NCBI RefSeq assembly: GCF_002224285.1 | Contig: NZ_CP022436.1 | Coordinates: 2,232,001 to 2,296,000, forward strand | DNA from: Arthrobacter sp. YN | Lineage (GTDB): Bacteria > Actinomycetota > Actinomycetes > Actinomycetales > Micrococcaceae | DNA: 64,000 nucleotides | Direction: 5' to 3' | In this document: positions 31,598 to 54,022 of the stretch, in pieces | Layout: every line of letters starts with the position of its first letter | How positions within the stretch are numbered: the stretch's first letter is position 1 | Notes under the pieces: model-generated | What the model saw: the letters and a program-made list of their open reading frames with translations, nothing else | Told to the model about the DNA's origin: nothing | Database searches by the model: none | Made by a program: the position numbers and the translations under genes

Positions 31598-31639
31598 CTT
31601 TGCGCGTGTATCTTCCGGAGGGCCTAGCCGCTTACGTCG

Positions 31640-34050: not shown

Positions 34051-34079
34051 CCGATGTCGGGTTCTTCGCGGAGAGAGTC

Positions 34080-36107: not shown

Positions 36108-36148
36108 AGCCTGGGACGGGGGCCTTATCAGGCGCCCCGTCCCAGGCT
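36108..36148 (-). terminator. Terminator of the gamma-lyase operon
   Basis: Perfect 14-bp stem AGCCTGGGACGGGG / CCCCGTCCCAGGCT, 18 nt beyond the lyase stop. On the minus strand the stem is followed by TTTGTCGTC. Confidence 0.85.
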
Positions 36149-36165
36149 CGTGCATTCAGCGGTAG

Positions 36166-37383
36166 CTACTGCCCGGGGAACGTCTTGTCCAGGGCATTGA
36201 GGATGTCGTCAACGAGATCTTCGGCGTCCTCAAGGCCGATCGAAAGACGCATGTGGCCGTACTTGTGGAACGAGGCAGGGTAGTTTTCTGACCCTCCGCG
36301 TGCGTCCGGGCCAACGTGGACGATCAAAGATTCATCATGGCCAAGGGACACTGCAGAGGTAATGACCTGCAGGTTGTTGACGAAACGGTTCTGGGTGTCG
36401 GAGTCACCGTCCACGGCGAAGGCCAGGACTCCGCCGTAGCCGCGTCCGGCGAATTGTTTGGCAGCGGTTTCGTGCTGTGGGTGGGATGCAAGGCCCGGGT
36501 AGAGGACATAGGCGACCCGTGGGTCTGATTCCAGGACCGCAGCTACTTTCTCGGCGCTAGAGAAGTGCTGCTTGAGTCGCAACGGCAACGTGACGGAGCC
36601 GCGCATGATCATCCAGGCGTTGAAGGGTGAGATCACACCGCCGACCTCGACGACGGCTTCGTGCTTGATGTGCTGAATGAGCTCGCGGCGACCGGCTACC
36701 ACCCCGCCCATGGCGTCGCCATGGCCGTTGATGTATTTGGTCAGTGAGTGGACGACCAGATCGGCCCCGTCATCGAGGGCCCGGTAGAACGGGGCCGGCG
36801 TGAACGTGGCATCGATGCTGAACAGTACGCCCGCATCCTTGGCGATGCGGGACAAGGCCGCCACGTTGGCGACCTTGGTGGTCGGGTTGGCGATGGTTTC
36901 AGCGTGGATGAGCTTAGTGTTGGGGCGCACCGCGGCCTGGACAGCTTCAAGGTCAGCCACGTCCACGAAGGTAACTTCGATCCCGTATTTCTCGGGGAGG
37001 AGCTCGCCGAACAGGCGGTAGACAGCTTCATATGTGACGTTGGAGACCACTACGTGATCGCCGACTTTGAGAAGACTGAAGAAGATTCCGTGCAGTGCCG
37101 CCACGCCTGTGGCGAAGGCGGCGGCGGCTTCGGCGCCTTCCATGGCGGCAAGCTTGGTTTCAAGCGCCACCGAGTTCGCACCGGACGTCCGGTTGTAGAC
37201 CAATCCGTCGTCCACGCTCGACCAGTCCATGTCGGACGGGTCCTCGGGCAACAGGTAGGAGTTGGCCATGATCAGCGGGGTGCGGAGGGCGCCGGTGCCC
37301 TTGTCGATGTTGTTTCCACCATGGACCGCCCAGGTGTAGTCATGGACGGAGTCACGGTTGTGCTTATCCGGGTTTCGCTTCAT
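36166..37383 (-). CDS. Cys/Met-metabolism PLP enzyme, candidate canavanine gamma-lyase
   Basis: 405-residue fold-type-I PLP enzyme of the cystathionine gamma-synthase/methionine gamma-lyase family. YNRTSGANSVALETKLAAMEGAEAA matches the Tyr/Arg cofactor-phosphate motif, SIDATFTPAPF carries the pyridine-binding Asp191, and VHSLTKYINGHGD carries the Schiff-base Lys216. It is last in an operon with an XRE-cupin regulator, a stand-alone B3/4 protein and an Lrp regulator. Canavanine gamma-lyases, which release homoserine and hydroxyguanidine, belong to this family and occur with exactly such B3/4 and RidA genes. Methionine or homocysteine gamma-lyase is the main alternative; the assignment rests on context. 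Confidence 0.8.
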   Translation of the reverse strand: MKRNPDKHNRDSVHDYTWAVHGGNNIDKGTGALRTPLIMANSYLLPEDPSDMDWSSVDDGLVYNRTSGANSVALETKLAAMEGAEAAAAFATGVAALHGIFFSLLKVGDHVVVSNVTYEAVYRLFGELLPEKYGIEVTFVDVADLEAVQAAVRPNTKLIHAETIANPTTKVANVAALSRIAKDAGVLFSIDATFTPAPFYRALDDGADLVVHSLTKYINGHGDAMGGVVAGRRELIQHIKHEAVVEVGGVISPFNAWMIMRGSVTLPLRLKQHFSSAEKVAAVLESDPRVAYVLYPGLASHPQHETAAKQFAGRGYGGVLAFAVDGDSDTQNRFVNNLQVITSAVSLGHDESLIVHVGPDARGGSENYPASFHKYGHMRLSIGLEDAEDLVDDILNALDKTFPGQ

Positions 37384-37416
37384 TGCTGGTGTTTCCTTTC
37401 GGATGGGTATGCATCG

Positions 37417-37887
37417 TCAGAGGCCAATGGTTTGAGGTGTCGGGCGATGACAGAAAAGGGGTTGGGTTGTTGATACGTCGAGGGCCAGTACCGCTGACTG
37501 AACTTTGAAAAAGGTGGTGATCTTGTCGAGCCGATCAAGGTCGGGGACCTGGAGCCTCAGGAGAACTGTGTGGGCGTTGTCGACGAGTTCGGCTGTGATG
37601 ATTTCCGGGATGGACTTCAAGCTGCGTTGCAGGTCGTGCCCAGAGCGCCCCGGCACCTGCACAATTCTGATGACGGCGGTTATGGGCCTCGTGGTTGGAT
37701 CGGGATAGTCGCGGATGATCGTGTAACCGCCGATGTGCCCGTCCAGTTCGAGCCTGAAGATCCGTTCGGCGCACTGGCTTTTGGTCAGGCCGGTACGTAG
37801 GGCGATCGTTGCGCTCGGAAGCCTGCCTTCGTCCTGCAGAATGCCCAGGATTTTCAGGTCCATCGGGTCCGGCTCAGGTACGTTCAC
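37417..37887 (-). CDS. Lrp/AsnC family regulator 1
   Basis: 156 residues. An N-terminal winged helix (MDLKILGILQDEGRLPSATIALRTGLTKSQCAERIFRLE) is followed by the RAM/ligand-binding domain. The GTG start at 37887 is supported by GAGCGAGGA upstream; an internal Met at 37863 is the alternative. It lies between the B3/4 gene (16-nt gap) and the lyase gene (33-nt gap), so it is likely the amino-acid-responsive regulator of this operon. AsnC-type regulators sense free amino acids such as the proposed canavanine or homoserine. Confidence 0.88.
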   Translation of the reverse strand: MNVPEPDPMDLKILGILQDEGRLPSATIALRTGLTKSQCAERIFRLELDGHIGGYTIIRDYPDPTTRPITAVIRIVQVPGRSGHDLQRSLKSIPEIITAELVDNAHTVLLRLQVPDLDRLDKITTFFKVQSAVLALDVSTTQPLFCHRPTPQTIGL

Positions 37888-37903
37888 GGCGTCCTCGCTC
37901 CGG

Positions 37904-38641
37904 TTACTGTCCTGGCTTGTGGCCGTCGGATTGAACCAGTTGCTGAGCGGTAACGACTTCCGGCCCCAGGAGGAGCAGGTGCTCTGTGAGGTCCTTGCCA
38001 GCGGCAAGCAGAGCTTCAGTGGTCTTCGGTTCGAGAGCGTCGAGAATGAACAACGCCGAGGTCGTGTCGTCGCGCAGTTGCGTGCGGCGGCCTTGGCGCC
38101 AGTTCCAGCGGCGGCAAGTGACCCCATCCTCGTCGCACCAAACGACTTCACCTGCGTCCGGGTAGTCGATGAGTGGTTCACCGCTGGCCACGGTCTCGAA
38201 GGGTTCATGGCCCGTTGCGCGGACCAGCCGCGGTGCTCCGCGGTAGCTGGCGAGGTCCTCGCCGCCGAGCGGAATCTGGTGCAGCACTGAGACTGCGTTG
38301 TAAAGGTCGGTGAGCCTGTTGACCCGGGGGAGACCTGCGTCCGCACGGCGGACCAATGCTTCGAGGCTGTTGCGGGTGCGGTTGGGCTTGGCTCCGAAGG
38401 ACTGGTACGCCTCCCGCCACGCAGCAACGTGCGGGAGGTGCTCGACTTTCTGCTGGCTCAGTGCGGCCCGGGCAGCGGCCTCAGCCTGTTCCAGCAAAGC
38501 ATTGCCGGCTTCATCGCTGGGTTCCGGGACGAGCCCGTCGACGGCGATCAGCAGGGCCCGGTAGTCGGGTCGAAGCTCGAATACCTCGGGGGCGACGTGT
38601 GCTTGGTTGAGGAGTTCCTGAAGAGTTTGGGAGCTATGCAT
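37904..38641 (-). CDS. Stand-alone B3/4 tRNA-editing domain protein, paralogue 1 (CtdA-like)
   Basis: 245 residues consisting of the B3/B4 domain otherwise found in the beta subunit of phenylalanyl-tRNA synthetase, where it hydrolyses mischarged tRNA. Visible family stretches are FELRPDYRALLIAVDGLVP, AYQSFGAKPNRTRNSLEAL, NAVSVLHQIPLGGEDL, WCDEDGVTCRRWNWRQGRRT and SALFILDAL. Stand-alone members include CtdA, a deacylase of canavanyl-tRNA(Arg). The start has GGGAG 7 nt upstream and overlaps the cupin stop by 8 nt. A close paralogue, roughly 70% identical by eye, is at 49396-50124. The substrate is inferred from neighbours. Confidence 0.85.
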   Translation of the reverse strand: MHSSQTLQELLNQAHVAPEVFELRPDYRALLIAVDGLVPEPSDEAGNALLEQAEAAARAALSQQKVEHLPHVAAWREAYQSFGAKPNRTRNSLEALVRRADAGLPRVNRLTDLYNAVSVLHQIPLGGEDLASYRGAPRLVRATGHEPFETVASGEPLIDYPDAGEVVWCDEDGVTCRRWNWRQGRRTQLRDDTTSALFILDALEPKTTEALLAAGKDLTEHLLLLGPEVVTAQQLVQSDGHKPGQ

Positions 38642-39235
38642 TGCCAGTCTCCCGATGCCCTGACCCGACGCCTCGCTCAAAAACGGCGAGGGAGAACCGT
38701 GCGGCCTTGGCGCTGTCGTTCGAGTACGAATGGGCTACGTCACCAGGAAAGGAGACCGAGTCGCCAACTTCCAGAGTGACCGTCTGGTCCCCGGCGACAA
38801 CCGTGACTGTTCCTTCTTGAACCTGCAACAGCTCTTTCGTGCCGGGCGTATGTGCCTCGCTGGAGTGCTGGTCACCGGGGCCCAGCGTCCAATCCCACAG
38901 TTCAACAACTTCTGGCGGTTCGGTTCCGGCGACGAGAACTCCGCGTCCGCCTGAATCGCTGCTCCACAGCACGGCGCCTTCGCCCTTGCGGGTCACCTTC
39001 ACGGCCTTGGGTTCGGGGACTGGACCAGGTCCGGGAGTCCTACGCCGAGGGCGTCGCTGATCCGCAACAGCGTGCCGACGCTGGGGTTCATTGTTGCCTG
39101 TTCCACGTTGACGAGCATGCGTCGGCTCACACCGGCAGCTTCCGCGAGCTGGTCCAGGGTCCAGCGGCGTGCCTGACGCTCCTGCTTGACCCGTACCCCG
39201 ATGGCTGAGGCCAGGGTTGCGATGTTTTCATCCAT
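38634..39235 (-). CDS. XRE-cupin transcriptional regulator, apparently split by a one-base deletion
   Basis: The N-terminal 78 residues (39235 to 38999) form an XRE helix-turn-helix (RRWTLDQLAEAAGVSRRMLVNVEQATMNPSVGTLLRISDAL). The C-terminal part, in the next frame from 39002 to 38634, is a cupin_2 sensor (HTPGTKELLQVQEGTVTVVAGD, then SFPGDVAHSY). Such regulators are normally one protein of about 190-200 residues; adding one base near the CCCAAGG at about 39003-39010 gives 200 residues. Alternatively, two coupled proteins (GTGA overlap) are made. It heads the B3/4-Lrp-lyase operon, and a 15-nt palindrome lies 14 nt upstream, probably its own operator. Confidence 0.8.
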
Positions 39236-39243
39236 AAATGCAG

Positions 39244-39264
39244 CATACTGCACTTGAAGTGCAC
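39244..39264 (-). promoter_or_regulatory. Palindromic operator upstream of the XRE-cupin/B3/4 operon
   Basis: Contains the perfect palindrome TGCACTT-g-AAGTGCA (39249-39263). The surrounding 21 nt differ from the sequence upstream of the second B3/4 gene (50173-50193) at only two central bases. The site lies 9-29 nt before the regulator's ATG, suiting autorepression. Confidence 0.75.
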
Positions 39265-39302
39265 TTTTCAAGACCTGCCCGACAGATCCATGTAGAAACA
39301 AC

Positions 39303-39336
39303 TGAGCCGCCACTGCGATGTTGCGGTGGCGGCTCA
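39303..39336 (-). terminator. Terminator after the RidA gene
   Basis: 14-bp stem TGAGCCGCCACTGC / GCGGTGGCGGCTCA (one G-T wobble) with a 6-nt loop. On the minus strand it is followed by GTTGTTTCT. It separates the APC-RidA unit from the XRE-led operon. Confidence 0.8.
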
Positions 39337-39368
39337 CTTTGAACCCGGTCCGGTTCGGGTAAAGGAGG

Positions 39369-39761
39369 TTATGCAGTGTCCGGGAGTACGGCCAGGACTT
39401 CGATTTCCACGAGAGCACCAGGAACCAGTTCGGCTCCGACCGTCACACGGGCCGGATAGGGTTTGGGTACATGCCGGCCGTAGGCGGCGTCAAACTCGTC
39501 AAAGTCATGATCCGTAGAGAGATAGACGCGGCTGATCAGCACATCGGACCAGCGGGCGCCGGCGTGGATTAGGATCGAGTCGATCTGGGCAAGAACCTGC
39601 GACACCTGCTCGGTGACGCTGCCCTGGAGAATGCCGCCCGTTTGGGGGTCAATGGGGATTTGACCGGAGACTTGGAGGAAGCGGCCGATCTGTTTGGCCT
39701 GGCTGTAGGAGCCGACCGGCGCCGGGGCGTTGGGTGATTCGATGACGCGGTTTACGGACAT
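39369..39761 (-). CDS. RidA family enamine/imine deaminase
   Basis: 130 residues. APVGSYSQAKQIGRFLQVSGQIPIDPQTG is the RidA N-terminal signature, and YPARVTVGAELVPGALVEIEVLAV carries the conserved catalytic arginine and the terminal Glu. RidA proteins hydrolyse reactive enamines/imines released by PLP enzymes, protecting other PLP enzymes. It lies beside the gamma-lyase locus and downstream of the amino-acid permease gene (45-nt gap), and RidA homologues accompany PLP gamma-lyases in other bacteria. Confidence 0.92.
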   Translation of the reverse strand: MSVNRVIESPNAPAPVGSYSQAKQIGRFLQVSGQIPIDPQTGGILQGSVTEQVSQVLAQIDSILIHAGARWSDVLISRVYLSTDHDFDEFDAAYGRHVPKPYPARVTVGAELVPGALVEIEVLAVLPDTA

Positions 39762-39806
39762 GTTCGTCTTTCCCTTGCTTGATAGTGGAAGTTAATGTGG
39801 CGTGGC

Positions 39807-41231
39807 TTATGGAACGGGGAGTGATTCCTTCGGCGGCCTCTGGCGTAGTCGGGAGTGGCCGATGGAGTAGGTGAAGTAGAACGCGGTGGCCAGCAGGAGC
39901 CATGCGATGAATGCGATCAACGTGACCGGACGAAGATCTTTGATGATCCACAGGCAGCCGAGGATGGAGAGAATCGGCACGACCGGGTAGAGCGGGACCT
40001 TGAACGGAGCGGGTTGGTTTGGGTATTGGGCGCGTCGGATGATGACGGCCAGCGCCACCACGATGAACGCGACCAGAGTGCCAATGCTGGTCATCTCGGC
40101 AAGGAAGCTGATAGGCAGCAAGCCTGCGAGCACGGCGACAGCCGAACCGGTGATGAAAGTGCCGGCAATTGGTGTCCGGGTGCGGGCGTTGACGCGGGAA
40201 AACACTGGCGGCACGAGCCCGTCGGTGCTCATCGCGAAAAAGATGCGCGTCTGTCCGTACAGCACGACCAGGGTCACGCTGAAAATCGAGACGATGGCGG
40301 CCAGGGCCAGTATGGTGCCGGGCCAGCTTGCGTTGGTGACGGTCTGCAGGATCTCCGCCAAACCTGCTTCCTGGCCTTCGAAGGCCCGGGTTTCCTGGGC
40401 TCCGATGGCCACCACGGCGACTGCGATGTACAGGGCCGTGACGACAGCGAGGGTGATGAGGATGGCCAGTGGCATGGTGCGGGACGGGTTTTTGGCTTCG
40501 TTTCCTGCGGTGGAGACCGCGTCCAGCCCGATGTAGGAGAAGAAGATGATGCCGGCGGCGCCGGTGATGCCGGCTATGCCCATCGGTGCGAAGTTGGAGA
40601 AGTGGTCTTGGTTCCACCCCGTTACCCCAATGACGATGAACATCACCAGGACGGCCAATTTGATCATCACCATGGCTGCGTTGGCTTTCGCTGACTCGCT
40701 CACACCGCGCACCAGTAACAGCGTGCACATGGCAACCAGGGCGATGGCGGGCAGGTTCACTACGCCGCCGGCTTCGGGTGCACTGGACAAAGCCTCGGGG
40801 ATGCGGACCCCGAAAAGGTTCTCCAGAGCCTGGTTCAGGTACTCGGACCAACCGACGGCGACAGCTGCCCCCGAGACCCCGTACTCCAGCAGGAGGCAGG
40901 CGCCGACGGCGAGGGCCGGGAACTCGCCCAGTGTCGCGTAGGCGTAGGAATAGGAGGAGCCGGAGGCGGGGATGGCACTGGCCATCTCTGCGTAGCAGAG
41001 AGCGGTGAGTCCGGCTACGACCGCGGCGATCACGAAGGACCAGATCACTGCCGGACCGGCGACGGGAACGGCCTGGGAGAAGACGATAAAGATTCCCGTT
41101 CCCACGGTGGCGCCGATGCCCAGCATGGACAGCTGGAAGGTTCCCATGCTGCGCGCCAGTGCTGGCTGCTCCGTGGATTGCTGCGTTCCTGGTGTCGTTC
41201 TGCGAAAGAGAACGTGGCGAAGTGAAGACAT
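39807..41231 (-). CDS. APC/CAT-family amino-acid permease
   Basis: 474 residues, twelve or more hydrophobic helices. The N-terminal SMGTFQLSMLGIGATVGTGIFIVFSQA and AEMASAIPASGSSYSYAYATLGEFPA are hallmarks of the cationic-amino-acid-transporter branch of the APC superfamily, whose members carry lysine, arginine or ornithine. AGGAAC precedes the ATG at 41231. It is divergent from a LysR gene and transcribed with RidA. A cationic-amino-acid permease suits uptake of arginine-like canavanine; the specificity is inferred. Confidence 0.85.
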   Translation of the reverse strand: MSSLRHVLFRRTTPGTQQSTEQPALARSMGTFQLSMLGIGATVGTGIFIVFSQAVPVAGPAVIWSFVIAAVVAGLTALCYAEMASAIPASGSSYSYAYATLGEFPALAVGACLLLEYGVSGAAVAVGWSEYLNQALENLFGVRIPEALSSAPEAGGVVNLPAIALVAMCTLLLVRGVSESAKANAAMVMIKLAVLVMFIVIGVTGWNQDHFSNFAPMGIAGITGAAGIIFFSYIGLDAVSTAGNEAKNPSRTMPLAILITLAVVTALYIAVAVVAIGAQETRAFEGQEAGLAEILQTVTNASWPGTILALAAIVSIFSVTLVVLYGQTRIFFAMSTDGLVPPVFSRVNARTRTPIAGTFITGSAVAVLAGLLPISFLAEMTSIGTLVAFIVVALAVIIRRAQYPNQPAPFKVPLYPVVPILSILGCLWIIKDLRPVTLIAFIAWLLLATAFYFTYSIGHSRLRQRPPKESLPVP

Positions 41232-41525
41232 CTGAAAGTTCCTAGCGGTATGGCCTGACCGAGGGTCAAGCAGTCCCGCCTCCACGGCGTCCGTGGCGCA
41301 AGGCAGGAGGGGTCAAGTACGGGAGAGGCTCCTGCACCTGACCGGAGATCGGCAAAGACAAGTTCTGAACACAGCGGGAGCCGAATTGTTGATGTTGGAT
41401 CCCGTCGGGGAGTGGGTCACGCAGCGCGTCTGGTGGGACGGCTGGCTGTGACTTGTGTCAATGCTAGATAGGATTAAGCACCATACCAATGGCATATGTT
41501 CTAATCAATGATTTAGGTAACCCTT
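41232..41525. other. Divergent promoter region, APC permease and LysR genes
   Basis: 294 bases between divergent starts. A weak dyad ATACC-aat-GGCAT lies close to the LysR gene, where a LysR autoregulatory site would be expected. Nothing else is recognisable. Confidence 0.4.
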
Positions 41526-42470
41526 ATGGATCCGTACCAACTCAGCGTCTTGCGTGAACTCGGTGATCATGGCAGTGTGGCCGCTACAGCCCGCGCCCTG
41601 GGGGTCAGTCCGTCCGCGGTTTCGCAGTCCCTCGGGGCCCTTCAGCGCAAATTCAAGGCACCGTTGACCCAGAAGCGTGGACGCTCCGTGGAACTCACGG
41701 ACGCGGGTCAGGCTCTTGCGGTCGCGGCTATCGCCGTCTCGGAAGCGATCACCCGGGCGGAGGCAACAGTGGATGAATTCGTTGGCGGTATCGACCGAAC
41801 AGTGCACGTCAGCGCCTTCCACAGCGCCGCAATGACGTTCTTTCCTGACCTCGCGGCCTTGGAAAATACGGAAGGGTTCCCAGTGGTTGAATGCGTCGAT
41901 GAAGACGTGGACCGTCTCTCGTTCCCGGCCCTAACCGCCAGCTACGACATCGTCATTGGCCATAGGATGAGCCACACACCGCCTTGGCCCAGGGACAGGT
42001 TGGCAGTGTTGTCGCTGTTGCGGGAACCCATGGACGTGGCCATGCACTCGTCCCACGATTTGGCCATGAAGAAGACGCTGAAACCCTCAGACCTCGTGGG
42101 GACAACGTGGATTTCGACGCACGCAGGGTTTTCGCCGGCTGACATGTTGGACGCCGTAGCCGCGGCGGCGGGACATCCCATGCGGGTGGTGCACCGGATC
42201 AACGACTTCAGCACTGCCGCGGCCATGGTCTCCGAAGGCGGACATCTTGCACTACTGCCCCGGCACACGGTCCGAATCCCGGCGTCCCATGACGTTGTGC
42301 TGCGGCCTCTCCAGGGCCTGGAGACAGTTCGGCATGTGGACATGCTGATCCGGCCTGAACGGGTTGTCCACAGAGCAGTAGCTGTCGTCATCGATGCTCT
42401 GCGCGAGATCGCCCAATCACATGTTCAATCCCCCTCAGTCAGGAGCACCCGTGCCGAAGAGTCCACGTGA
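41526..42470 (+). CDS. LysR family transcriptional regulator
   Basis: 314 residues. The N-terminal winged helix (ELGDHGSVAATARALGVSPSAVSQSLGALQRKF) is classical LysR, followed by a two-lobed effector domain with the late STAAAMVSEGGHLALLPRH segment. It is divergent from the APC permease-RidA unit, the standard LysR arrangement for controlling a neighbour. Its end overlaps the second Lrp gene by 20 nt. Confidence 0.88.
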   Translation: MDPYQLSVLRELGDHGSVAATARALGVSPSAVSQSLGALQRKFKAPLTQKRGRSVELTDAGQALAVAAIAVSEAITRAEATVDEFVGGIDRTVHVSAFHSAAMTFFPDLAALENTEGFPVVECVDEDVDRLSFPALTASYDIVIGHRMSHTPPWPRDRLAVLSLLREPMDVAMHSSHDLAMKKTLKPSDLVGTTWISTHAGFSPADMLDAVAAAAGHPMRVVHRINDFSTAAAMVSEGGHLALLPRHTVRIPASHDVVLRPLQGLETVRHVDMLIRPERVVHRAVAVVIDALREIAQSHVQSPSVRSTRAEEST

Positions 42471-42906
42471 TGAAATAGATGCGCAGATTCTGGCCGAGCT
42501 TCGGCGCAATGCCCGCATCAGCTTGGCCCAGCTGGGGGAGAAGGTGCTGCTGTCCCGTAACGCGGTTCGGCAGCGAATCGAGCGGTTGGAACGTGATGGC
42601 TACATTAACGGCTACACCATCAAAGAATCAGCAGGAGATGGAATCCCCACCGTCAATGCCGTGCTGTTGATTCAGAGGCATGACCGCATGCGGGGCAGCG
42701 ACGTCATTGCAGGTTTGCGGGCCATCCCGGAAATCGCCACCTGCGATGTCGTCAGCGGCGAGCTTGATCTCATCGTCAGGGTCGAGGCGCCGGACGCTGC
42801 GAGGATCCAGGAGATCTGGAGGCAGGTCTCAGAGTTCCCCGGAGTCCGTGACACCACCACCGCGCTGTCCCTTTCGACCGTGATTGACAGGCAGGTGCCT
42901 CGCTGA
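42451..42906 (+). CDS. Lrp/AsnC family regulator 2
   Basis: 151 residues. The winged helix (IDAQILAELRRNARISLAQLGEKVLLSRNAVRQRIERLERDGYI) precedes the RAM effector domain. The GTG at 42451 with AGGAG upstream is preferred over an earlier ATG without such a site. It is co-transcribed with the LysR gene. As the second Lrp protein within 5 kb it is a further sign of amino-acid-responsive control. Confidence 0.87.
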   Translation: MPKSPRDEIDAQILAELRRNARISLAQLGEKVLLSRNAVRQRIERLERDGYINGYTIKESAGDGIPTVNAVLLIQRHDRMRGSDVIAGLRAIPEIATCDVVSGELDLIVRVEAPDAARIQEIWRQVSEFPGVRDTTTALSLSTVIDRQVPR

Positions 42907-42932
42907 GGCTTGTCCCCTTCGGATATTAAAAG

Positions 42933-43116: not shown

Positions 43117-44493
43117 TCAGGCGTTCATCAGGGCCTCGACCTGCTCGGGCAGCAACAAGCCCTCACTGACAGCGATGTCCATGACACTCTGCCCCGAGAC
43201 AAGGGCCCTGTGGGCGACCTCGGCCGCGACTGCGTAACCCAAGACCGGCAGCAGCGCCGTGGCCTGCGCCGTAGACGCCCGTGCCCTGGAACGAAGCAAC
43301 GCCTCGTTGGCTTCGATGCCGGTCACGCATAGCTCGCGTAGGACGTCGCAGCCGTTGGTCAGCCAACTCAGCGACTGCAGCAACGCGTGGGCGATGACTG
43401 GCTCGAACGCGTTCAGCTGAAGCTGTCCGTTGTCAGCGGCCATGGTCACAGTGACGTCGGCGCCGGCGACGAAGAACGCGATCTGATTGATGACCTCGGG
43501 GATGACAGGGTTGACCTTGCCGGGCATGATTGAGGAGCCTGCTTGCCGCGGGGGCAGATGAATCTCGCCGAGCCCTGTCTGGGGTCCGCTTGAGAGCAGG
43601 CGCAGGTCGCTGCAGATCTTGGAGAGCTTTATTGCGGTGCGTTTAAGCGCCCCGGAGAACGTCATGAACGCCCCGGTATCCCAGGTTGCTTCGACAAAAT
43701 CGTGGGCACGGGTCAACCGGACCCCGCTTACCGCTGAGAGTCTATCGATGACGAGCTCCACATACCGTGGATCCGCGGTGATGCCGGTACCGATCGCTGT
43801 GGCGCCCAAACTGCACTCCTGCAGCAGCGCTGCTGCCTCGCGCAGGCGACGCTGGTCCTCCTCGAGCGTGACGGCGAATGCAGTGAACTCCTGCCCAAGC
43901 GTCATAGGCACAGCATCCTGCAACTGCGTGCGGCCGACCTTCGGGATGGCCGCAAACGCCTGGCCCCGCTGGGCGAACGCCGCTGACAGCAGGGCCAGAC
44001 GCTCCAGGAGGTCCTCCAAAGCGAATACCAGCGCCAAGCGCACTGCAGTCGGGTAAACATCATTGGTGGACTGGCATTTGTTGACGTGCCCGATCGGGTC
44101 GATCACTCCATATGCCCCACGAGGATGCCCCAATGACTGCAACGCCAGGTTGGCGATGACTTCATTGGCGTTCATGTTCGTCGAGGTTCCGGCCCCGCCC
44201 TGGATGACGTCCACGGGGAAAGCGTCGTCGACCTCGCCGGCAGCGACCGTGTCGCAGGCCAACGCGATGGCTTGGCCAATATCGGCTGGGATCAAGCCCA
44301 GCTCGGCGTTGGTCAGGGCTGCGGCCTTCTTCACATACGCCAGGGCGCGGATGAGGTGCCGGTGGGTTCCCAACTGAATGCCGCTGATCGGGAAATTAAG
44401 GATGGCCCGTTCAGTGTGTATGCCCCACAGGGCGGATTTGGGGACGGCCAAGGAGCCCAGGCTGTCCTGTTCGATTCTGACCCCTGCGCTCAT
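43117..44493 (-). CDS. aspA: Aspartate ammonia-lyase
   Basis: 458 residues of the fumarase/aspartase superfamily. TSTNMNANE at 103-111, the KCQSTNDVYPTA region and the signature GSSIMPGKVNP at 319-329, whose Ser provides the catalytic base, are intact. It deaminates aspartate to fumarate and ammonia. It is the third gene of a coupled operon with homoserine dehydrogenase and an aldehyde dehydrogenase, so it would finish conversion of homoserine to a TCA intermediate. A fumarase activity is less likely, because the TSTNMNANE form is typical of aspartases. Confidence 0.9.
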   Translation of the reverse strand: MSAGVRIEQDSLGSLAVPKSALWGIHTERAILNFPISGIQLGTHRHLIRALAYVKKAAALTNAELGLIPADIGQAIALACDTVAAGEVDDAFPVDVIQGGAGTSTNMNANEVIANLALQSLGHPRGAYGVIDPIGHVNKCQSTNDVYPTAVRLALVFALEDLLERLALLSAAFAQRGQAFAAIPKVGRTQLQDAVPMTLGQEFTAFAVTLEEDQRRLREAAALLQECSLGATAIGTGITADPRYVELVIDRLSAVSGVRLTRAHDFVEATWDTGAFMTFSGALKRTAIKLSKICSDLRLLSSGPQTGLGEIHLPPRQAGSSIMPGKVNPVIPEVINQIAFFVAGADVTVTMAADNGQLQLNAFEPVIAHALLQSLSWLTNGCDVLRELCVTGIEANEALLRSRARASTAQATALLPVLGYAVAAEVAHRALVSGQSVMDIAVSEGLLLPEQVEALMNA

Positions 44494-46944: not shown

Positions 46945-47108
46945 AGTGATCTCCTTGATGGGGCGGTAATGCTGTCCTTTAAGCCTCGGCCCCGGGAGCG
47001 TCAGTTCCCTAGAAGCGAAACGCTCGTCGGGCATGACGAAACGGCCAAAGGAGCTGGCAGTTCGGTCCCATCGGTCAGACGTCCAGAGCACCGACCCCTT
47101 CACGCAAA

Positions 47109-47157: not shown

Positions 47158-47173
47158 GGATTTGCCGGGCTGG

Positions 47174-48091
47174 TTACCAGCCGCGTTCTGCGAGGCGGTG
47201 GGGCTGCGGGATGTCGTCGACGTTGATGCCGACCATGGCTTCGCCGAGGCCGCGGGAGACCTTGGCGATGACATCGGGATCGTCGTGGAAGGTAGTGGCC
47301 TTCACGACGGCGGCGGCGCGCTCTGCCGGGTTGCCGGACTTGAAGATGCCGGAACCAACGAATACGCCGTCGGCGCCGAGCTGCATCATCATCGCAGCAT
47401 CAGCCGGGGTCGCGATGCCGCCGGCGGTGAACAGGACCACGGGGAGCTTGCCGGTGGCGGCAACTTCCTTGACCAGTTCGTACGGGGCCTGCAATTCCTT
47501 GGCCGCGACGTACAGCTCGTCCTCGGGAAGAGCGGCGAGCTTGGCGATCTCGGCACGGATCTTGCGCATGTGCCCGGTGGCGTTGGAAACGTCACCGGTA
47601 CCGGCCTCGCCCTTGGACCGGATCATGGCCGCGCCCTCGTTGATGCGGCGCAGGGCCTCACCGAGGTTGGTGGCACCACAGACGAAGGGGACGGTGAAGT
47701 TCCACTTGTCGATGTGGTTGACGTAGTCGGCCGGGGTCAGGACCTCGGACTCGTCGATGTAGTCAACACCGAGGGACTGCAGGACCTGGGCTTCGACGAA
47801 GTGGCCGATGCGGGCCTTGGCCATCACCGGGATGGACACGGCAGCGATGATCGCATCGATCATGTCCGGATCGGACATGCGGGACACGCCGCCCTGGGCG
47901 CGGATATCGGCCGGGACACGCTCAAGCGCCATGACAGCCACGGCACCGGCGTCCTCGGCGATGCGGGCCTGCTCGACGTTAACGACGTCCATGATGACGC
48001 CGCCCTTGAGCATCTCCGCCATGCCACGCTTAACGCGGCTGGAGCCCGTTTGGGCGGTGGCGGGTGAGGGCGTGAAGGGTGATGTACTCAT
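47174..48091 (-). CDS. pdxS: Pyridoxal 5'-phosphate synthase lyase subunit PdxS
   Basis: 305 residues, closely matching Pdx[20 protein letters not shown] carries the N-terminal lysine region, and [35 protein letters not shown] and [15 protein letters not shown] are all conserved. It makes PLP from ribose 5-phosphate, glyceraldehyde 3-phosphate and ammonia, the last normally from the PdxT glutaminase. No pdxT is in this window, so it is an orphan. The start overlaps the stop of a small gene (ATGA). It may boost PLP for the nearby gamma-lyase. Confidence 0.95.
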
Positions 48092-48387
48092 TGCTGTTCC
48101 TTTGGCTCTTCGGTGGTGCTGTCGGTCTTCAGACGCGCCAAGATGGTGAATTCGTGGGTTTCGATGATTTTGCGGGTCCGTGATTGTTCGTCAAAGATCC
48201 AGAGGAGGCCGTGTTTGGATGAGACGTCGGTGACGGGGCCGGCATGGCATACGGCTCCGTCCCGCAAGGCCCGGATGAGCATTCCCGGGTCAAGGTCTGC
48301 GAGCTTGGCAGGCGGGATGAAACCATCGTCCCGGTGGACTGCCAAGGCGGACGGCGGGAGGGGCGGGCCCGGAAACTGTGATCTCAT
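48088..48387 (-). CDS. Small hypothetical protein in the pdxS operon
   Basis: 99 residues, soluble, no signal sequence. A proline-rich N-terminus is followed by a beta-rich part ([41 protein letters not shown]) that resembles the 78-residue protein at 25633-25869. I start at the ATG at 48387; upstream frame would overlap the exporter gene. It is 8 nt from the exporter stop and overlaps pdxS by 4 nt, so it is a real operon member. Function unknown. Confidence 0.6.
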
Positions 48388-48395
48388 GTCAGTCC

Positions 48396-49340
48396 TTATG
48401 AGCTTTTCTGCCGGGCCTGGTGGTCGGCGTCGCTGCCCTTCACTTCCGTGCCGTACGCGGGTTGGGCATCGGAGTCCGGCGGAAGTGGGTTCGGGTGACG
48501 GCGCCCGCCGCGTTGGGCTGCCGCGCCTGCGAAGACCACCAGCAGGATGCCCACGAGTTGGAGGATCGAGGGGGATTGCGCCAACACGATCATGCCGAGC
48601 AGCAGGCCGATAGCCGGTTCCAATGCCAGGAGGGTGCCGAAAGCTGTGTGGGTCATGCGGCGTAGGGCCCGCATTTCCAGAATGTAAGGCAGGACCGGTA
48701 TCAGCACCGCCAGGCCGGCGGCTACGGCTACGATTTCCCACGTCATGTGTCCGAAAGCCTGCGGCACTCCGAACGGCGCCACGACCACGGCTGCGATGGG
48801 GATGGTCAGGGCCAGAGCCCCAATTCCGCTGAACCGATCGCCGACTTTTTGGGTCAACAGGACATAGGCGGCCCAGCCGATGGCGCCCATGACAGCAAAG
48901 CCGACACCGAGCAGGTCAACCTGGCCTGCCCAGGGTTCGGTGAGCAGGACGACACCTGCCAGTGCTGTTGCCGGCAGTAACAACGAACGCACTCCGCGGC
49001 CCCGAAGGGCGGCAACACTGAGAGGGCCGAGGAATTCGATGGCGACCGCGGTTCCCAGGGGAAGGCGTTCCATGGCTGCGAGGAACGTCACTGACATGAC
49101 GCCGGTGGCGATGCCGAGGCCGAGGACGGCCGGAGCATCACGAAGGCGCAGGGACCTGAGTGGTGGACGGGCCAGCAGGAGCAGGATGAGTGCGCCCATG
49201 CTCAGTCGCAGCCAAGCCGTTCCGATGGGACCCAGGGTAGGCATCAATCCTGCTGACAGGGCGGAGCCGAGCTGGATGGAAAACATGGCCGCTATGGTCA
49301 GGGCCCAGGGTGGAATCGGGCCGTTGGTTGTTGTGGTCAT
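48396..49340 (-). CDS. EamA-family exporter, RhtA-like (threonine/homoserine efflux type)
   Basis: 314 residues with ten predicted helices in two EamA repeats. The N-terminal FSIQLGSALSAGLMPTLGPIGTAWLRL and the central AIEFLGPLSVAAL match the RhtA branch, which exports threonine and homoserine. The last 35 residues are a hydrophilic tail. Start at the ATG at 49340 with GAGGGGAA upstream. In this locus, export of surplus homoserine is the natural guess. It lies between the second B3/4 gene and the pdxS genes on one strand. Confidence 0.85.
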   Translation of the reverse strand: MTTTTNGPIPPWALTIAAMFSIQLGSALSAGLMPTLGPIGTAWLRLSMGALILLLLARPPLRSLRLRDAPAVLGLGIATGVMSVTFLAAMERLPLGTAVAIEFLGPLSVAALRGRGVRSLLLPATALAGVVLLTEPWAGQVDLLGVGFAVMGAIGWAAYVLLTQKVGDRFSGIGALALTIPIAAVVVAPFGVPQAFGHMTWEIVAVAAGLAVLIPVLPYILEMRALRRMTHTAFGTLLALEPAIGLLLGMIVLAQSPSILQLVGILLVVFAGAAAQRGGRRHPNPLPPDSDAQPAYGTEVKGSDADHQARQKSS

Positions 49341-49395
49341 TGCTGGTTCCCCTCGGTCGGGCAGCCACTTCGTGCACGCCACCTTGGAGGCTGGA

Positions 49396-50124
49396 TCACG
49401 TCAGGGTGGTTTTGGTGATGAGATGGTCGGTAATGGTGATGTCGGGGCCGAGCCCGCTGAGGTGTGTTGCGAGTTCCTCGGCGGCTGCCTGCAGGGCGTC
49501 GGTGGTCATCGGGTCAAGGGCGTCCAGAATGAACAACGCCGTGGTGGTCTCGTCTTGTAGTTGCGTCCGCCGGCCCTGTCGCCAGTTCCAGCGTCTGCAG
49601 GTGACACCTTCGTCATCGCACCAGATGACTTCGCCGGGCTCGGGGTGTTCGATGACTGTCTCTCCGTTGGATGCAGTATCGAAAGGTTCCTCGCCTGTGG
49701 CGCGGATTAGTCGGGGCGGGCCGCTGTATTTGGAGAGGTCTTCGCCGCCGAGCGGGATTTGGTGAAGCACCGAAATGGCGTTGTAGATGTCGGTCAGCCG
49801 GTTCACCCGGGGCAGCCCGGTGACGGCTCGGCGCAGGAGGGCCTCGAGGCTGTTCCGTGTCCGGTTCGGTTTGGCACCGAAGCCCTGGTAAGCCGCACGC
49901 CACGCGGCTACGTGGGGGAGGGATTCGACCTTTTGTTCCTGAAGCGCCTGACGCGCAGAGGCTTCGGCTTTCTGCAGCAGCGCCTCGCTGGCATCGTTGC
50001 TTGCTCCCGGTACGAGACCATCGACGGCCAGCAGTATGGCCCGGTAGTCGGGGCGCAGTTCAAAGATGGCAGGGTCGATGGTGCTGGCCTTGACGAGTTT
50101 CTGAAGCTGGGCAGTCTCAGACAT
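49396..50124 (-). CDS. Stand-alone B3/4 tRNA-editing domain protein, paralogue 2 (CtdA-like)
   Basis: 242 residues, aligning end to end with the protein at 37904-38641. They share FELRPDYRA, YQGFGAKPNRTRNSLEAL, NAISVLHQIPLGGEDL, the GVTCRRWNWRQGRRTQL motif and ALFILDAL. GGGAG stands before the ATG at 50124. It heads the B3/4-exporter-small protein-pdxS unit and has the same palindromic operator as paralogue 1. Duplication of a trans-editing enzyme in one locus suggests strong selection for tRNA quality control, plausibly canavanyl-tRNA(Arg). Target tRNA is inferred. Confidence 0.85.
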   Translation of the reverse strand: MSETAQLQKLVKASTIDPAIFELRPDYRAILLAVDGLVPGASNDASEALLQKAEASARQALQEQKVESLPHVAAWRAAYQGFGAKPNRTRNSLEALLRRAVTGLPRVNRLTDIYNAISVLHQIPLGGEDLSKYSGPPRLIRATGEEPFDTASNGETVIEHPEPGEVIWCDDEGVTCRRWNWRQGRRTQLQDETTTALFILDALDPMTTDALQAAAEELATHLSGLGPDITITDHLITKTTLT

Positions 50125-50172
50125 CGGTAGGCTCCCTGAGTGGGGCGAAATATGCGGTATCCATAAAGGCAT

Positions 50173-50193
50173 CATACTGCACTTATAGTGCAC
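50173..50193 (-). promoter_or_regulatory. Palindromic operator upstream of B3/4 paralogue 2
   Basis: TGCACTT-a-TAGTGCA at 50178-50192, within 21 nt that match the operator at 39244-39264 except for two central bases. It lies 49-69 nt before the start codon, a position suited to repression of transcription by the XRE-cupin regulator. Confidence 0.75.
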
Positions 50194-50208
50194 AGCGGAA
50201 GATGGATG

Positions 50209-51081
50209 TCAGTTTTGCCTCAACTTGCTGCCCGCGGTCCGCACGGCTGCAGTGATCCGTTCCAGGCGCGGTGAGGTCAGAGACCAGCACTGCCAATAGA
50301 GTGCGACGTCGTGGGCCGCGGCGCCCGGAAGAGCCACAAGTCCATCACGGAGCCTGCCTTGCTGAAGCTGCTGTTCCGGTATCATGCCCCACCCCAAGCC
50401 GGCGCGGGCCGCCTCGAGAAACCCCTCGGAGGAAGGAATAGTGTGCGTTGGCGGGAAGCGTTCGACACCTTGGGAGCGGAGGAGATGATGCTGCATGTCA
50501 TCATTGGTGCTGAACTGAAGCATCGGCATTTCCGGCCAGTTGATTCCGTCAGTGGTTTCGTAGCATTCGCGTAGCCCAGGTGAGGCGGCTGGGATGTAGC
50601 GCATGACTCCCAGCGGCTCGGCCCGGCATCCACCGACCGGCTTGGGCTCGGTGGTGACGGCCCCAAGAACATCCCCTTGTCGGAGTAGGCGGCTGCTGTG
50701 GTCTTGATCCTCGATATGCAAGTCCAGCTCTGTGTCGGTCCATGTCGCGGCTTCGTGCAGGACCGGGATGAACCACGTGGCCAGTGAATCGGCGTTGACG
50801 GCAATTGAGGCGGTGGCGCGTCCGGCGGGGCCCTGCCCCAGGGACTGGAGGGCGTCTGCTTCAAGCGCCTGGATTTGTCGGGCTGTCCGCAGCAGTATGG
50901 CCCCTGCCTCTGTAGGGCTGCTTGGCAGGCTGCGGCGCACCAAAATCTGCCCTGCAGAGGTCTCCAGGGCTTTGATCCTTTGGCTAACAGCTGACGGGGT
51001 GATGCCCAGAAGGGTTGCTGCGCCGTCAAAGGATCCCGTCGCAACGATGGCGCTCAGTGCCTTCAAATGTTCGAAGTTCAT
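50209..51081 (-). CDS. ArgP/LysG-type LysR regulator
   Basis: 290 residues. MNFEHLKALSAIVATGSFDGAATLLGITPSAVSQRIKALE and the following GQILVRR and LLRTARQIQALEADAL stretches are the ArgP (IciA)/LysG pattern. Characterised members sense lysine, arginine and analogues and activate basic-amino-acid exporters. No LysE/ArgO-type exporter is adjacent; instead the RhtA-like exporter and a polar amino-acid importer flank it. Start at the ATG at 51081. In E. coli the ArgP system is linked to canavanine sensitivity, which fits the locus. Confidence 0.85.
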   Translation of the reverse strand: MNFEHLKALSAIVATGSFDGAATLLGITPSAVSQRIKALETSAGQILVRRSLPSSPTEAGAILLRTARQIQALEADALQSLGQGPAGRATASIAVNADSLATWFIPVLHEAATWTDTELDLHIEDQDHSSRLLRQGDVLGAVTTEPKPVGGCRAEPLGVMRYIPAASPGLRECYETTDGINWPEMPMLQFSTNDDMQHHLLRSQGVERFPPTHTIPSSEGFLEAARAGLGWGMIPEQQLQQGRLRDGLVALPGAAAHDVALYWQCWSLTSPRLERITAAVRTAGSKLRQN

Positions 51082-51225
51082 GGTGTAAACGTAGGGTACC
51101 TTGGGACTTTTTTGGCCCACCATGGTGCGGACCGTCTCGAACGATCAGTCCACACCATGGTCGGCGTGATGGTGGTTGTACCAGCTTGCAGTTACCGATA
51201 TTCTCTGCGGCTTCCTCCACGGGGC

Positions 51226-52038
51226 TCAGAGAACCTTGCTGAGGAAGCCTTTCGTGCGCTCATGCTGGGGAGTGGCGATGACTTCGCGGGGGTTGCCCGA
51301 CTCGATGACAACGCCTCCGTCCATGAAGGTGAGCGTGTCACCGACTTCCCGGGCAAAGCCGATTTCGTGGGTGACCACAATCATGGTCATGCCGGATTTC
51401 GCGAGGTCTTTCATGACGTCCAGTACGTCTCCCACCAGTTCGGGATCGAGAGAGGAGGTTGGCTCATCGAAGAGCATGAGTTCGGGCTCCATTGCGAGGG
51501 CCCGGGCGATGGCAACGCGCTGTTGTTGGCCGCCGGAAAGCTGTGCCGGATAGTAACTCGCCCGATGAGCCAGGCCCACGCGGTCCAGGAGTTCCTGGGC
51601 CCGGCGCTTCGCCGGCACCCTGTCCTGGCCTTTCACCTGCACCGGAGCTTCAATGATGTTCTCCAAAACAGTCTTGTGCCCGAACAGGTTGAATCTTTGG
51701 AACACCATGCCGATGTTCCGGCGTTGGCGCGCGATGTCTTTGAGGTGCAACTCGTGGAGCTTTCCATCCTTCTCCTTGTAGCCAATGAGTTCGTCATTGA
51801 CCCGGATGCGACCGGCGCTGATGGTCTCCAGATGGTTGATGCACCGTAGAAGGGTAGATTTACCGGACCCTGACGGGCCGATTAGAACAGCAACTTCTCC
51901 CTGTTTGACGGTCATATCTATGCCGTTGAGAACGTGGTGGTCACCGAAGTACTTATGAACTCCCTCGATCTTGACCAGATCGTTCTTGACTGACGCATCG
52001 GACGCGGGGCGGGATAAGGAATGGGCAGAAGCGCTCAT
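51226..52038 (-). CDS. Polar amino-acid ABC transporter ATP-binding protein
   Basis: 270 residues of the GlnQ/HisP type: Walker [18 protein letters not shown] signature, [10 protein letters not shown] and the switch His in [30 protein letters not shown] is typical of polar amino-acid importers. It overlaps the permease gene by 4 nt, so the binding protein, permease and ATPase are made together. Confidence 0.95.
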
Positions 52039-53009
52039 CGGCCGTTCTCCTCTGTGGTCGGGGTGGTCGGTGCCGGGTCAGCAGTTGCCCGTGCCGCCTG
52101 CAGTGCTGCGGGGTTGACTGTAACGCGCGCCGCGGTATCGATGCCTTTTCCATAGTGCTTTTCGATGAAATGCTGGCCAACCATCAAAATGCTGGTGACC
52201 GCCAGGTACCAAAATGCCGCGACAATGAGCAAGGGAATGGGGAGGTAGCTGCGGTTGGCCAGCGTGTTGGTGACAAAGGTGAGGTCGAGGGTGAATGGCA
52301 CTGCCAGAACCAGCGAGGTGGTCTTGAGCATCCCGATGGTTTCGTTGCCGGTGGGTGGGACTATGATGCGCATCGCCTGGGGAAGGACGATCCTCCACAT
52401 GATCTTGGTGCCTCGCATGCCCAGGGCTTCTGCGGCTTCGATCTGTCCTTTGTCCACCGATTTCAGGCCGGCGCGGAAAATCTCCGCCAGATAAGCCGAT
52501 TCGTTCAGTGCGAGTCCTAGGACGGCGGCCCAAAAGGCGTTGAGCAGGTCTTGGGTGGTCAGGCTCAGAAGTTCCGGACCGAACGGCACTCCGAGTGTGA
52601 TCTTGGGGTAGAGGACGGCGACCAGGCCCCAAAAGATCAGCTGGGTGTAGACGGGGGTGCCGCGGAAGAACCAGACCCAGAACCAGCTGGACCAGCGGAA
52701 GATGGGATTGTCCGACTGGCGCATGAAGGCGAGCAACACCGCCAAGGTGACGGCGATGGCCATCGATAGAACGGTGAGCAGGAGTGTCCAGCCGACACCG
52801 CGGACAACACTTTCGTCCAGGACGTACAGGGCGAACGTCTCCCAGTGGAAGTTGGGGTTGGTGGCAAGACTTTGAACCCCAAGAACTGCAAGGACGAGGA
52901 TGACCGCGGCGCCCACCCACCGGCCGGGGTGCCGGACGGGCACTGCCTTAATAAGCTCCGGCGCGGCCTTGTTCACAGATGTTTCCTGATGGTCAGCGGT
53001 GATACTCAT
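52035..53009 (-). CDS. Polar amino-acid ABC transporter permease
   Basis: 324 residues of the HisMQ family: an N-terminal cytoplasmic part of about 30 residues, then helices with [26 protein letters not shown] and the EAA loop [24 protein letters not shown]. It overlaps the binding-protein gene by 4 nt. The C-terminal 40 residues (about [20 protein letters not shown]) are a hydrophilic tail. A single permease suggests a homodimeric pore. Confidence 0.93.
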
Positions 53010-54022
53010 GATGTGACGGTCGGGTTGACTTCAGGGTTCGTGATCGCGCCGTCAGCGTTGTTCCACGAATCCAGGATGGTTTTGTAGGTGCCATCGGAGA
53101 TCAGTTTGGCCACGGCCTTCTGGATCAGTTCAGCCAAGGCCTGGTCGTTCTTTGGGACCGCGATGCCGACCGGGGAGGTGTTGTAAACCTCGCCGGCCTT
53201 TTCCACGGCGCCGTTGGTTTGCTGGATGGCGTACCCAATGAGAGTGGATTCGGCGATCATGGCGTCGATGCTGCCGTTGACCAGACGTGTGGTGACGTCT
53301 GTCTGATTCTTGAGCGTGACAACGTTGATTGGCTGCTTGCCTGCTTTGATGCATTCATCGTTGCGGTTCTTGAGATCAGGATCTTCCTGCGTGGTGCCGG
53401 TCTGGACGCCGACGGATTTACCGCAAACATCGTCGGGTGAGAACTTCTTCGGGTTGCCTTTTTGGACGGCCCAGGTGGTGCCGGCGCTGAGGTAGCTGAC
53501 GAAGTTCACAGCCTTCAGGCGCTCGGTGGTGATGCTGAAGGAGCTGATCCCCAGATCGTATTTGGGGCCCAGGGCGGGGAGGATGCCGGTGAATTCTGCT
53601 GTCTGAATGTCGACTTTCAGGTCCAGGGTCGCGCCGATCGCCTTGGCGAGGTCAACACCGTAGCCCATCGGCGTCCGGTTGTCTGCGCCGCCGAGGAATT
53701 CGGCGGGGGCGTAGGTGGTGTCGGAACCAATGACCAAGGTGCCCTTGGACTTGATGGCGGCCGGCACCTGGGACGCCAACGTTTCGTCGGCTTTGATGCT
53801 GGCGGGATCGAAGCTGGTAGTGGGCGAGCCTGCCTGGGTCGAGCCGTTCCCCGCCGATCCTGATGCATTGGTGCACGCCGAGAGTGCCAGAACGCAGGTG
53901 GTCAAAAGTGTTGCACCCTTGACCAAGGCTCCTGTACGGCGGCGGGCGGTGCCCTTGAGAGCTGATATGCGCTGTTCCTGGTGGACCGGCTGGCCCGATG
54001 ATGTGATCGTTGATTTCGACAT
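53006..54022 (-). CDS. Polar amino-acid ABC transporter substrate-binding lipoprotein (family 3)
   Basis: 338 residues. A long N-terminus leads into LLTTCVLALSAC, a lipobox that anchors the protein outside the membrane. The mature part shows the SBP_bac_3 pattern: GTLVIGSDTTYAPAEFLG, GYGVDLAKAIGATL, YDLGISSFSITTERLKAVNFVSY and the VGVQTGTTQEDDLK-like region. AGGAG precedes the ATG at 54022. The family binds basic or polar amino acids; given its position it may bind canavanine or arginine. Confidence 0.9.
   Translation of the reverse strand: MSKSTITSSGQPVHQEQRISALKGTARRRTGALVKGATLLTTCVLALSACTNASGSAGNGSTQAGSPTTSFDPASIKADETLASQVPAAIKSKGTLVIGSDTTYAPAEFLGGADNRTPMGYGVDLAKAIGATLDLKVDIQTAEFTGILPALGPKYDLGISSFSITTERLKAVNFVSYLSAGTTWAVQKGNPKKFSPDDVCGKSVGVQTGTTQEDPDLKNRNDECIKAGKQPINVVTLKNQTDVTTRLVNGSIDAMIAESTLIGYAIQQTNGAVEKAGEVYNTSPVGIAVPKNDQALAELIQKAVAKLISDGTYKTILDSWNNADGAITNPEVNPTVTS

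Follow-up and report, generated by a model that had tools for sequence, protein, structure and literature searches.

We analysed a 64,000-nucleotide stretch of DNA from Arthrobacter sp. YN (positions 2,232,001 to 2,296,000 of contig NZ_CP022436.1; hereafter, the window), whose host genome is a 5.06-Mb single contig, and found that it very probably contains a locus for the utilisation and tolerance of canavanine. We established its gene content, orthology and conserved linkage, and the activities predicted below rest on characterised proteobacterial relatives. A preliminary description had proposed that the canavanine chemistry of Proteobacteria also operates in this high-GC actinomycete, and our sequence comparisons support this proposal, because the pyridoxal phosphate (PLP)-dependent lyase and those of rhizobial and pseudomonad clusters form one narrow family, the downstream homoserine genes are 52-62% identical to those of rhizobial clusters, and both B3/4 proteins match the deacylase CtdA. 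In the proposed pathway, canavanine would enter the cell via a polar amino-acid ABC importer, and perhaps also via an APC permease, and the lyase would remove hydroxyguanidine from the gamma carbon of canavanine to leave homoserine. Homoserine would be converted to aspartate semialdehyde and then aspartate, from which aspartase would form fumarate and ammonia, while the two CtdA paralogues (CtdA1 and CtdA2) would hydrolyse canavanyl-tRNA(Arg) and so keep canavanine out of proteins. This chemistry is already known from the canavanine gamma-lyase pathway of Pseudomonas canavaninivorans and Rhizobium leguminosarum (PMC10018355, PMC12508155, PMC11018352).

Every gene named in the preliminary description (the lyase, two B3/4 proteins, RidA, Lrp-type regulators, permease, homoserine genes, exporter, pdxS, ArgP-type regulator and ABC importer) was located where it had been placed. 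However, the boundary given there (36108..54022) was too narrow, as the locus runs from about 30862 to 54022 (Table 1). Linked genes at 30862-36052 had not been listed, and of these an SMR pair, a PdxR-type regulator, an enzyme of the dihydrodipicolinate synthase (DHDPS) family and an MFS transporter (30862-35318) belong to the locus. A LysR gene (41526-42470, plus strand) and a helix-turn-helix (HTH)/cupin pair (38634-39418, minus strand) had also been unlisted. The full order is SMRb, SMRa, PdxR-type MocR, DHDPS-like enzyme, MFS, (FMN protein), lyase, Lrp1, CtdA1, HTH-cupin, RidA, APC, LysR1, Lrp2, aspartase, aldehyde dehydrogenase (ALDH), homoserine dehydrogenase, pdxS, EamA, CtdA2, ArgP-type LysR and ABC importer. 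In a sample of 206 genomes of the genus (labelled G###, other loci being labelled L###), this order was kept in G165 and, over its fetched part, in G198, the two closest genomes (84-99% identity over longer matches). G220 has one contiguous, rearranged set with a single CtdA, and G157 a shorter rearranged set on a 16.9-kb contig. Because the order recurs in G165 and G198 and, rearranged, in G220 and G157, the grouping is not due to chance. The fetched stretches of G108 and G210 contain a reduced set of lyase, CtdA, HTH-cupin, MFS, DHDPS-like and MocR genes.

The window lyase is 68-71% identical to the lyases of the rhizobial and Pseudomonas clusters (the exact P. canavaninivorans lyase being replaced in this comparison by those of P. 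jessenii, P. uvaldensis, P. batumici and a Pseudomonas metagenome-assembled genome), and has an RGG loop (positions 362-364), T92 and V121 in common with them. Each of these clusters includes a B3/4 gene, and most also have genes for homoserine and aldehyde dehydrogenases, an amino-acid importer, an SMR exporter and Lrp and HTH-cupin regulators. A search of 72,556 plasmid records gave 1364 matching records, 15 of them with lyases at 60-80% identity (65-75% as listed; the next listed was 41% identical), one from a Streptomyces and the others from rhizobia, Agrobacterium and Paraburkholderia. We compared named loci using the best 80 of 581 confirmed, some of whose fetched stretches end at contig ends. 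Among these 80, the nearest relative was that of Arthrobacter sp. fls2-241-R2A-200 (99% identity), and the lyases came from Pseudomonas, Mesorhizobium and Rhizobiaceae, Burkholderiaceae, Variovorax and many Actinobacteria; a CtdA-like gene was present in 12 of the fetched stretches and homoserine dehydrogenase in 20.

It could be argued that this enzyme is a methionine gamma-lyase or a transsulfuration enzyme, with neighbours that serve general amino-acid catabolism, as it belongs to the Pfam family Cys_Met_Meta_PP and both its best NCBIfam model and its nearest solved structures are methionine gamma-lyases. However, its score against that model (314.8 bits) lies below the equivalog cut-off of 549.7, as do its scores for the other 24 models listed, of 64 matching, relative to their cut-offs. 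In an alignment of 104 lyase rows (the best 80 of 581 loci plus plasmid and genus loci), Y63, R65, Y118, D191 and K216 were present in every row, and presumably have the catalytic roles known from methionine gamma-lyase. E119-A120, N219, G222 and H349-D350 are clade-wide, in contrast to GG, G, S and GV (or GI) in eight transsulfuration-type paralogues. These changes, along with a linkage to CtdA that has no evident use in methionine breakdown, make the methionine or transsulfuration explanation extremely unlikely.

The RGG loop was found in 32 of the 104 rows, including the window and all fetched rhizobial and Pseudomonas cluster lyases; most other actinobacterial rows are one residue shorter at this point, and a Variovorax lyase with RRG there comes from a genome without CtdA. 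Within the best 80 of 581 loci, a CtdA-like gene lay in the same stretch for 11 of the 20 lyases with the loop versus 1 of the 60 without it, so that 11 of the 12 CtdA-linked lyases have the loop; the sole loop-less case was L149, from Streptomyces, whose B3/4 protein is distant. RGG, T92 and V121 were all present in 22 of 22 CtdA-linked rows (a set picked after inspection of the tree, with two rows identical), whereas among 64 other members T92 was found in 1 and V121 in 8. In a quick tree, the window lyase clustered with proteobacterial enzymes (34-row set, SH-aLRT 97). This first tree nested the proteobacterial enzymes within the actinobacterial tree, but when a hand-thinned set of 75 of the 104 rows was put to a constrained test, a single actinobacterial clade was not rejected (p-AU 0.58) and the constrained tree was 5.1 log units better, so that an actinobacterial origin of the lyase is one of the possible directions of transfer between the phyla. 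We therefore take the subgroup argument to be carried by the RGG loop and gene context, and not by the tree.

A second explanation is that the substrate is homoserine, or a gamma-O-substituted homoserine other than canavanine, and that CtdA serves a different mischarged amino acid. Related lyases occur with homoserine dehydrogenase and ALDH, and with no CtdA in the fetched stretch, in 13 Microbacterium or Leucobacter loci, and the Arthrobacter genome has a second set of homoserine genes that lacks a lyase. However, the rhizobial/pseudomonad RGG loop of the window lyase was found in none of these 13 loci, and the window B3/4 proteins match a canavanyl-tRNA deacylase, and we consider a substrate other than canavanine to be very unlikely.

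Several observations nevertheless weigh against assigning canavanine to this locus. The wider actinobacterial lyase family (58-68% identity) is mostly without CtdA linkage and may act on another substrate, and membership in the family by itself would not prove that canavanine is the substrate. CtdA was found anywhere in the genome (E 1e-15) in 11 of 50 wider-family genomes (50 of 61 listed), with several of these matches being distant (30-38%); it was present in 4 of the 8 whose lyase has the RGG loop and in 7 of the 42 others. Four Burkholderiaceae genomes have an RGG-loop lyase and no CtdA, G071 has an 81% identical lyase with an altered loop and no CtdA, and G213 lacks a lyase although CtdA, homoserine dehydrogenase and ALDH are all present. 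There is no aspartase in the stretch of the fetched Pseudomonas loci. The HTH-cupin regulator upstream of CtdA1 occupies two frames in the window versus a single frame in 8 of 8 relatives compared, which may mean that the gene is truly damaged, that the sequence contains an error or that the regulator works as two genes. Finally, the second homoserine dehydrogenase-ALDH-aspartase set of this genome (L243, at about 2.57 Mb; 88-93% identity) lies away from any lyase, and homoserine use therefore need not imply canavanine. The homoserine dehydrogenase of L243 matches in two overlapping pieces. No common neighbour theme was seen for CtdA-less actinobacterial lyases in four loci (Williamsia, Pseudonocardia, Cryobacterium and Gordonia).

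The two B3/4 proteins are assigned to CtdA by homology. Each is a stand-alone protein that scores above the PF03483 cut-off, aligns to PDB 9f7e over about 220 residues and retains its strongly conserved blocks, and the only solved structures matched by both at E <0.01 were 9f7e (CtdA canavanyl tRNA deacylase) and 9mkl (B3/4 domain-containing protein). CtdA1 and CtdA2 are 67% identical to each other and 43-44% identical to R. leguminosarum CtdA; a Clostridium homologue with 35% identity to the Pseudomonas protein is reported to be still active (PMC10018355). The same source describes CtdA as co-localised with canavanine degradation genes in R. leguminosarum, and control by a guanidine riboswitch as frequent but neither universal nor required (PMC10018355). 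No guanidine riboswitch was found in the window, where no Rfam family reached its gathering score, and in this respect, as in its two copies, the locus differs from the known CtdA system.

Across the 206 genus genomes, the lyase (E 1e-100) was found in 8, CtdA (E 1e-30) in 26 and both in 7. CtdA was thus present in 7 of 8 lyase-bearing genomes versus 19 of 198 others (Fisher p 1.7e-6, indicative only since the genomes are related). In a CtdA tree of 51 rows, CtdA1 and CtdA2 fell in one 13-row set (support 96), whose members all came from lyase-bearing genomes except one from G213; the remaining lyase-free genus copies fell outside it. Matches shorter than 150 residues or with stops had been removed from this tree, leaving out G106 and G207, one row duplicates CtdA1, and there are long branches elsewhere. 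Because CtdA1 and CtdA2 share a set drawn almost wholly from lyase-bearing genomes, they look like a duplication within the lyase-bearing lineage. A plasmid of Clavibacter michiganensis subsp. insidiosus, for which Medicago truncatula is given as the source, encodes a further CtdA homologue (L047:5019-5735, 65% identical to CtdA2).

The 19 lyase-free genus loci with CtdA had the HTH and cupin parts in 18 cases and the cupin part alone in 1. An EamA exporter gene accompanied CtdA in 18 of the 19 stretches, directly adjoining it except in G213 (about 5 kb apart), and a DHDPS-like gene and an MFS gene were present in 14 and 8 of the 19, respectively. These CtdA-exporter islands, and the split HTH-cupin regulator of the window, would fit an explanation in which the locus provides tolerance only, the lyase detoxifying canavanine with no growth on it in this strain, perhaps through the broken regulator. 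However, importers and a full route from homoserine to fumarate accompany the window lyase, and we judge tolerance alone to be rather unlikely, albeit with a real chance; it overlaps with utilisation and tolerance together, and the probabilities that we attach to these explanations do not sum to one.

The DHDPS-like gene (E 1e-50) occurs in 55 of the 206 genus genomes, namely in 22 of 26 with CtdA versus 33 of 180 without (Fisher p 4e-11, genome relatedness ignored), and in G214 the two genes lie far apart; the gene is therefore associated with CtdA without being tied to it. Three Pseudomonas clusters and that of R. leguminosarum encode proteins 49-51% identical to its product, for which the closest solved structure is 2r8w (E 1.6e-69), an entry that bears only the name AGR_C_1641p. 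When aligned to 3pud, the product has threonine in place of an arginine of true DHDPS that we take to be the binder of aspartate semialdehyde, and because this substrate-binding arginine is replaced, lysine biosynthesis is not expected of the enzyme. It is conceivable, although we hold this tentatively and find it doubtful, that Actinobacteria have a modular canavanine defence whose core is the HTH-cupin regulator, CtdA, EamA and the DHDPS-family enzyme, and not the lyase. The DHDPS-family enzyme would then perform an undescribed canavanine-handling step (a Schiff-base lyase that uses the 2-oxo acid of canavanine would be one example), pdxS and PdxR would mend the PLP lost to canaline, and lyase-bearing strains would add catabolism.

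The canavanine operon of Hauth et al. 2022 reportedly includes homoserine dehydrogenase, ALDH and aspartase, all three of which are present in the window locus, where CtdA is linked to the lyase. Clusters of R. leguminosarum, M. amorphae, Rhizobium BT04 and S. alkalisoli contain HTH, B3/4, ABC importer, lyase, SMR or FMN, homoserine dehydrogenase, ALDH, aspartase and Lrp genes. The window thus resembles the R. leguminosarum locus in its orthologous lyase (69% identical), its CtdA proteins (B3/4 domain proteins, like that of PDB 9f7e; PMC10018355), its polar amino-acid importer and its homoserine dehydrogenase, ALDH and aspartase, and also in its Lrp, SMR, HTH-cupin and ArgP-type genes. Unlike the proteobacterial pathway, it belongs to an actinobacterium, its genes lie on both strands in several units, and it has two CtdA paralogues, an SMR pair instead of a single gene, and an added EamA exporter, pdxS and PdxR-type regulator. 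For the APC permease, the fetched Pseudomonas loci offer no closer match than 23-25% identity, and the CtdA proteins have diverged more from that of R. leguminosarum (43-44% identity) than the lyase has (69%).

For several accessory genes, roles can be suggested by analogy. The SMR pair may export hydroxyguanidine, because SugE is the best NCBIfam model, below cut-off, for the R. leguminosarum cluster SMR as for those of the window, and P. canavaninivorans is reported to secrete hydroxyguanidine (PMC11018352). The pdxS gene and PdxR-type regulator may replace PLP trapped by canaline, since canaline is described as forming oximes with carbonyls (PMC10018355), the window has both genes, and pdxS also adjoins CtdA in L252 (genome of L119, Williamsia soli). 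The YN genome has three copies of pdxS, at 514795, 2279177 and 2960962, with 97-100% identity. The ArgP, HTH-cupin and Lrp regulators would sense the substrate, and the EamA protein might export canavanine or homoserine. Its location near an ArgP-like LysR gene resembles by analogy that of MsiA, a LysE-type exporter, although the window exporter is an EamA protein whose substrate is only predicted. MsiA is reported to export canavanine in Mesorhizobium tianshanense (PMC3333776).

The preliminary description had held such a locus to be undescribed in Actinobacteria, and consistent with this we found no title describing canavanine catabolism in this phylum among the papers listed from the open-licence literature, to which our search was limited; the original 2022 lyase study is outside that scope, and a prior mention is possible. 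The phylum, the arrangement, the CtdA duplication, the PLP-supply genes and the tolerance islands appear to be new. The locus would extend canavanine catabolism from legume-associated Proteobacteria to Actinobacteria, with a candidate role in legume soils, and allows a tolerance island, commoner in the genus, to be told apart from a rarer utilisation locus. It also offers testable candidates for the exit or use of hydroxyguanidine and for the recurrent DHDPS-family neighbour of CtdA.

Table 1. Features of the putative canavanine locus (window coordinates)
Feature	Position	Strand	Evidence or remark
SMR-family exporter subunit b	30862..31179	-	NCBIfam best match SugE, below cut-off; order kept in G165, G198, G220
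SMR-family exporter subunit a	31179..31529	-	NCBIfam best match SugE, below cut-off; candidate hydroxyguanidine/guanidine exporter
MocR-family PdxR-type regulator (PLP supply)	31640..33103	-	NCBIfam PdxR 408.1 bits, cut-off 320
DHDPS/N-acetylneuraminate-lyase family enzyme	33163..34050	+	PF00701
MFS transporter	33885..35318	+	PF07690 30.2 bits, cut-off 33.4; linked in relatives; true start probably near 34002
Flavin-reductase-like FMN protein	35417..36052	-	PF01613; weak pathway link
Putative canavanine gamma-lyase orthologue (Cys/Met PLP)	36166..37383	-	Sequence comparison
Lrp/AsnC regulator 1 (start approximate)	37417..37884	-	
CtdA1, B3/4 canavanyl-tRNA deacylase homologue	37904..38680	-	PF03483; PDB 9f7e E 2.7e-51
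Cupin part of HTH-cupin regulator	38634..39002	-	One frame with HTH part in relatives
HTH (XRE) part of HTH-cupin regulator, other frame (start approximate)	38999..39418	-	
RidA-family imine/enamine deaminase	39369..39761	-	PF01042
APC amino-acid permease	39807..41285	-	NCBIfam matches to BcaP (best) and to a cationic amino-acid permease model, each below cut-off
LysR-family regulator 1	41526..42470	+	ArgP models far below cut-off
Lrp/AsnC regulator 2	42394..42906	+	53-56% to Lrp of two rhizobial clusters
Aspartate ammonia-lyase	43117..44493	-	NCBIfam PRK12273 666 bits, cut-off 510; 52-53% to two rhizobial clusters
Aldehyde dehydrogenase (predicted aspartate-semialdehyde to aspartate)	44490..45938	-	58-59% to two rhizobial clusters
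Homoserine dehydrogenase	45898..46947	-	NCBIfam PRK06270 436.8 bits, cut-off 373; 61-62% to two rhizobial clusters
pdxS, PLP synthase	47174..48091	-	One of three genome copies
EamA/RhtA-like exporter	48396..49382	-	RhtA model 140.7 bits, cut-off 354
CtdA2, B3/4 canavanyl-tRNA deacylase homologue	49396..50193	-	PF03483; PDB 9f7e E 1.3e-47
ArgP/LysG-type LysR regulator	50209..51123	-	NCBIfam ArgP/LysG 333.8 bits, cut-off 197; 37-38% to ArgP of R. leguminosarum cluster
Polar amino-acid ABC importer, ATPase	51226..52038	-	49-51% to two rhizobial clusters
Polar amino-acid ABC importer, permease	52035..53009	-	27-36% to two rhizobial clusters
Polar amino-acid ABC importer, substrate-binding protein	53006..54022	-	PF00497

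We considered the FMN protein as a hydroxyguanidine reductase and rejected it, as it is not conserved beside the lyase: the gene is intact in G165, a fragment in G198 and was not found in G220, G108, G210 or G157. The FMN protein of the Mesorhizobium cluster had no match in the window at E 1e-6. A cyanamide branch was likewise rejected. Cyanamide is reported to be made from canavanine in vetch (PMC4650597), and an HD protein encoded at 54475-55110 is distant kin of cyanamide hydratases (TIGR03401, 53.9 bits versus a cut-off of 109.85). Its relatives were found in 2 of 44 genomes tested, one at 39% identity, and also in the genus members G015 and G021, where the best lyase match is at paralogue level (E ~4e-63 and ~4e-62). 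The YN genome has a urease match over cut-off, and urea from any cyanamide might be usable in this way, but the cyanamide idea is itself weak.

The SMRb reading frame continues into a stretch that resembles RibA, a GTP cyclohydrolase II (30211-30861), and there was no RibA match beside SMRb in G165, G198 or G220. In L078 (Kineosporia babensis), the stretch lacks CtdA, and a 72% identical RGG-loop lyase adjoins P450-like genes in what may be a biosynthetic cluster. In L046, on a plasmid of Streptomyces sp. NBC_01445, a 37-kb stretch holds two canavanine-type lyases (75% and 65%), two differing B3/4 proteins and an EamA exporter. The HD protein and a DJ-1/AraC regulator, which form a pair at 54475-56191 in the window, also occur in the loci of G165 and Streptomyces NBC_01445.

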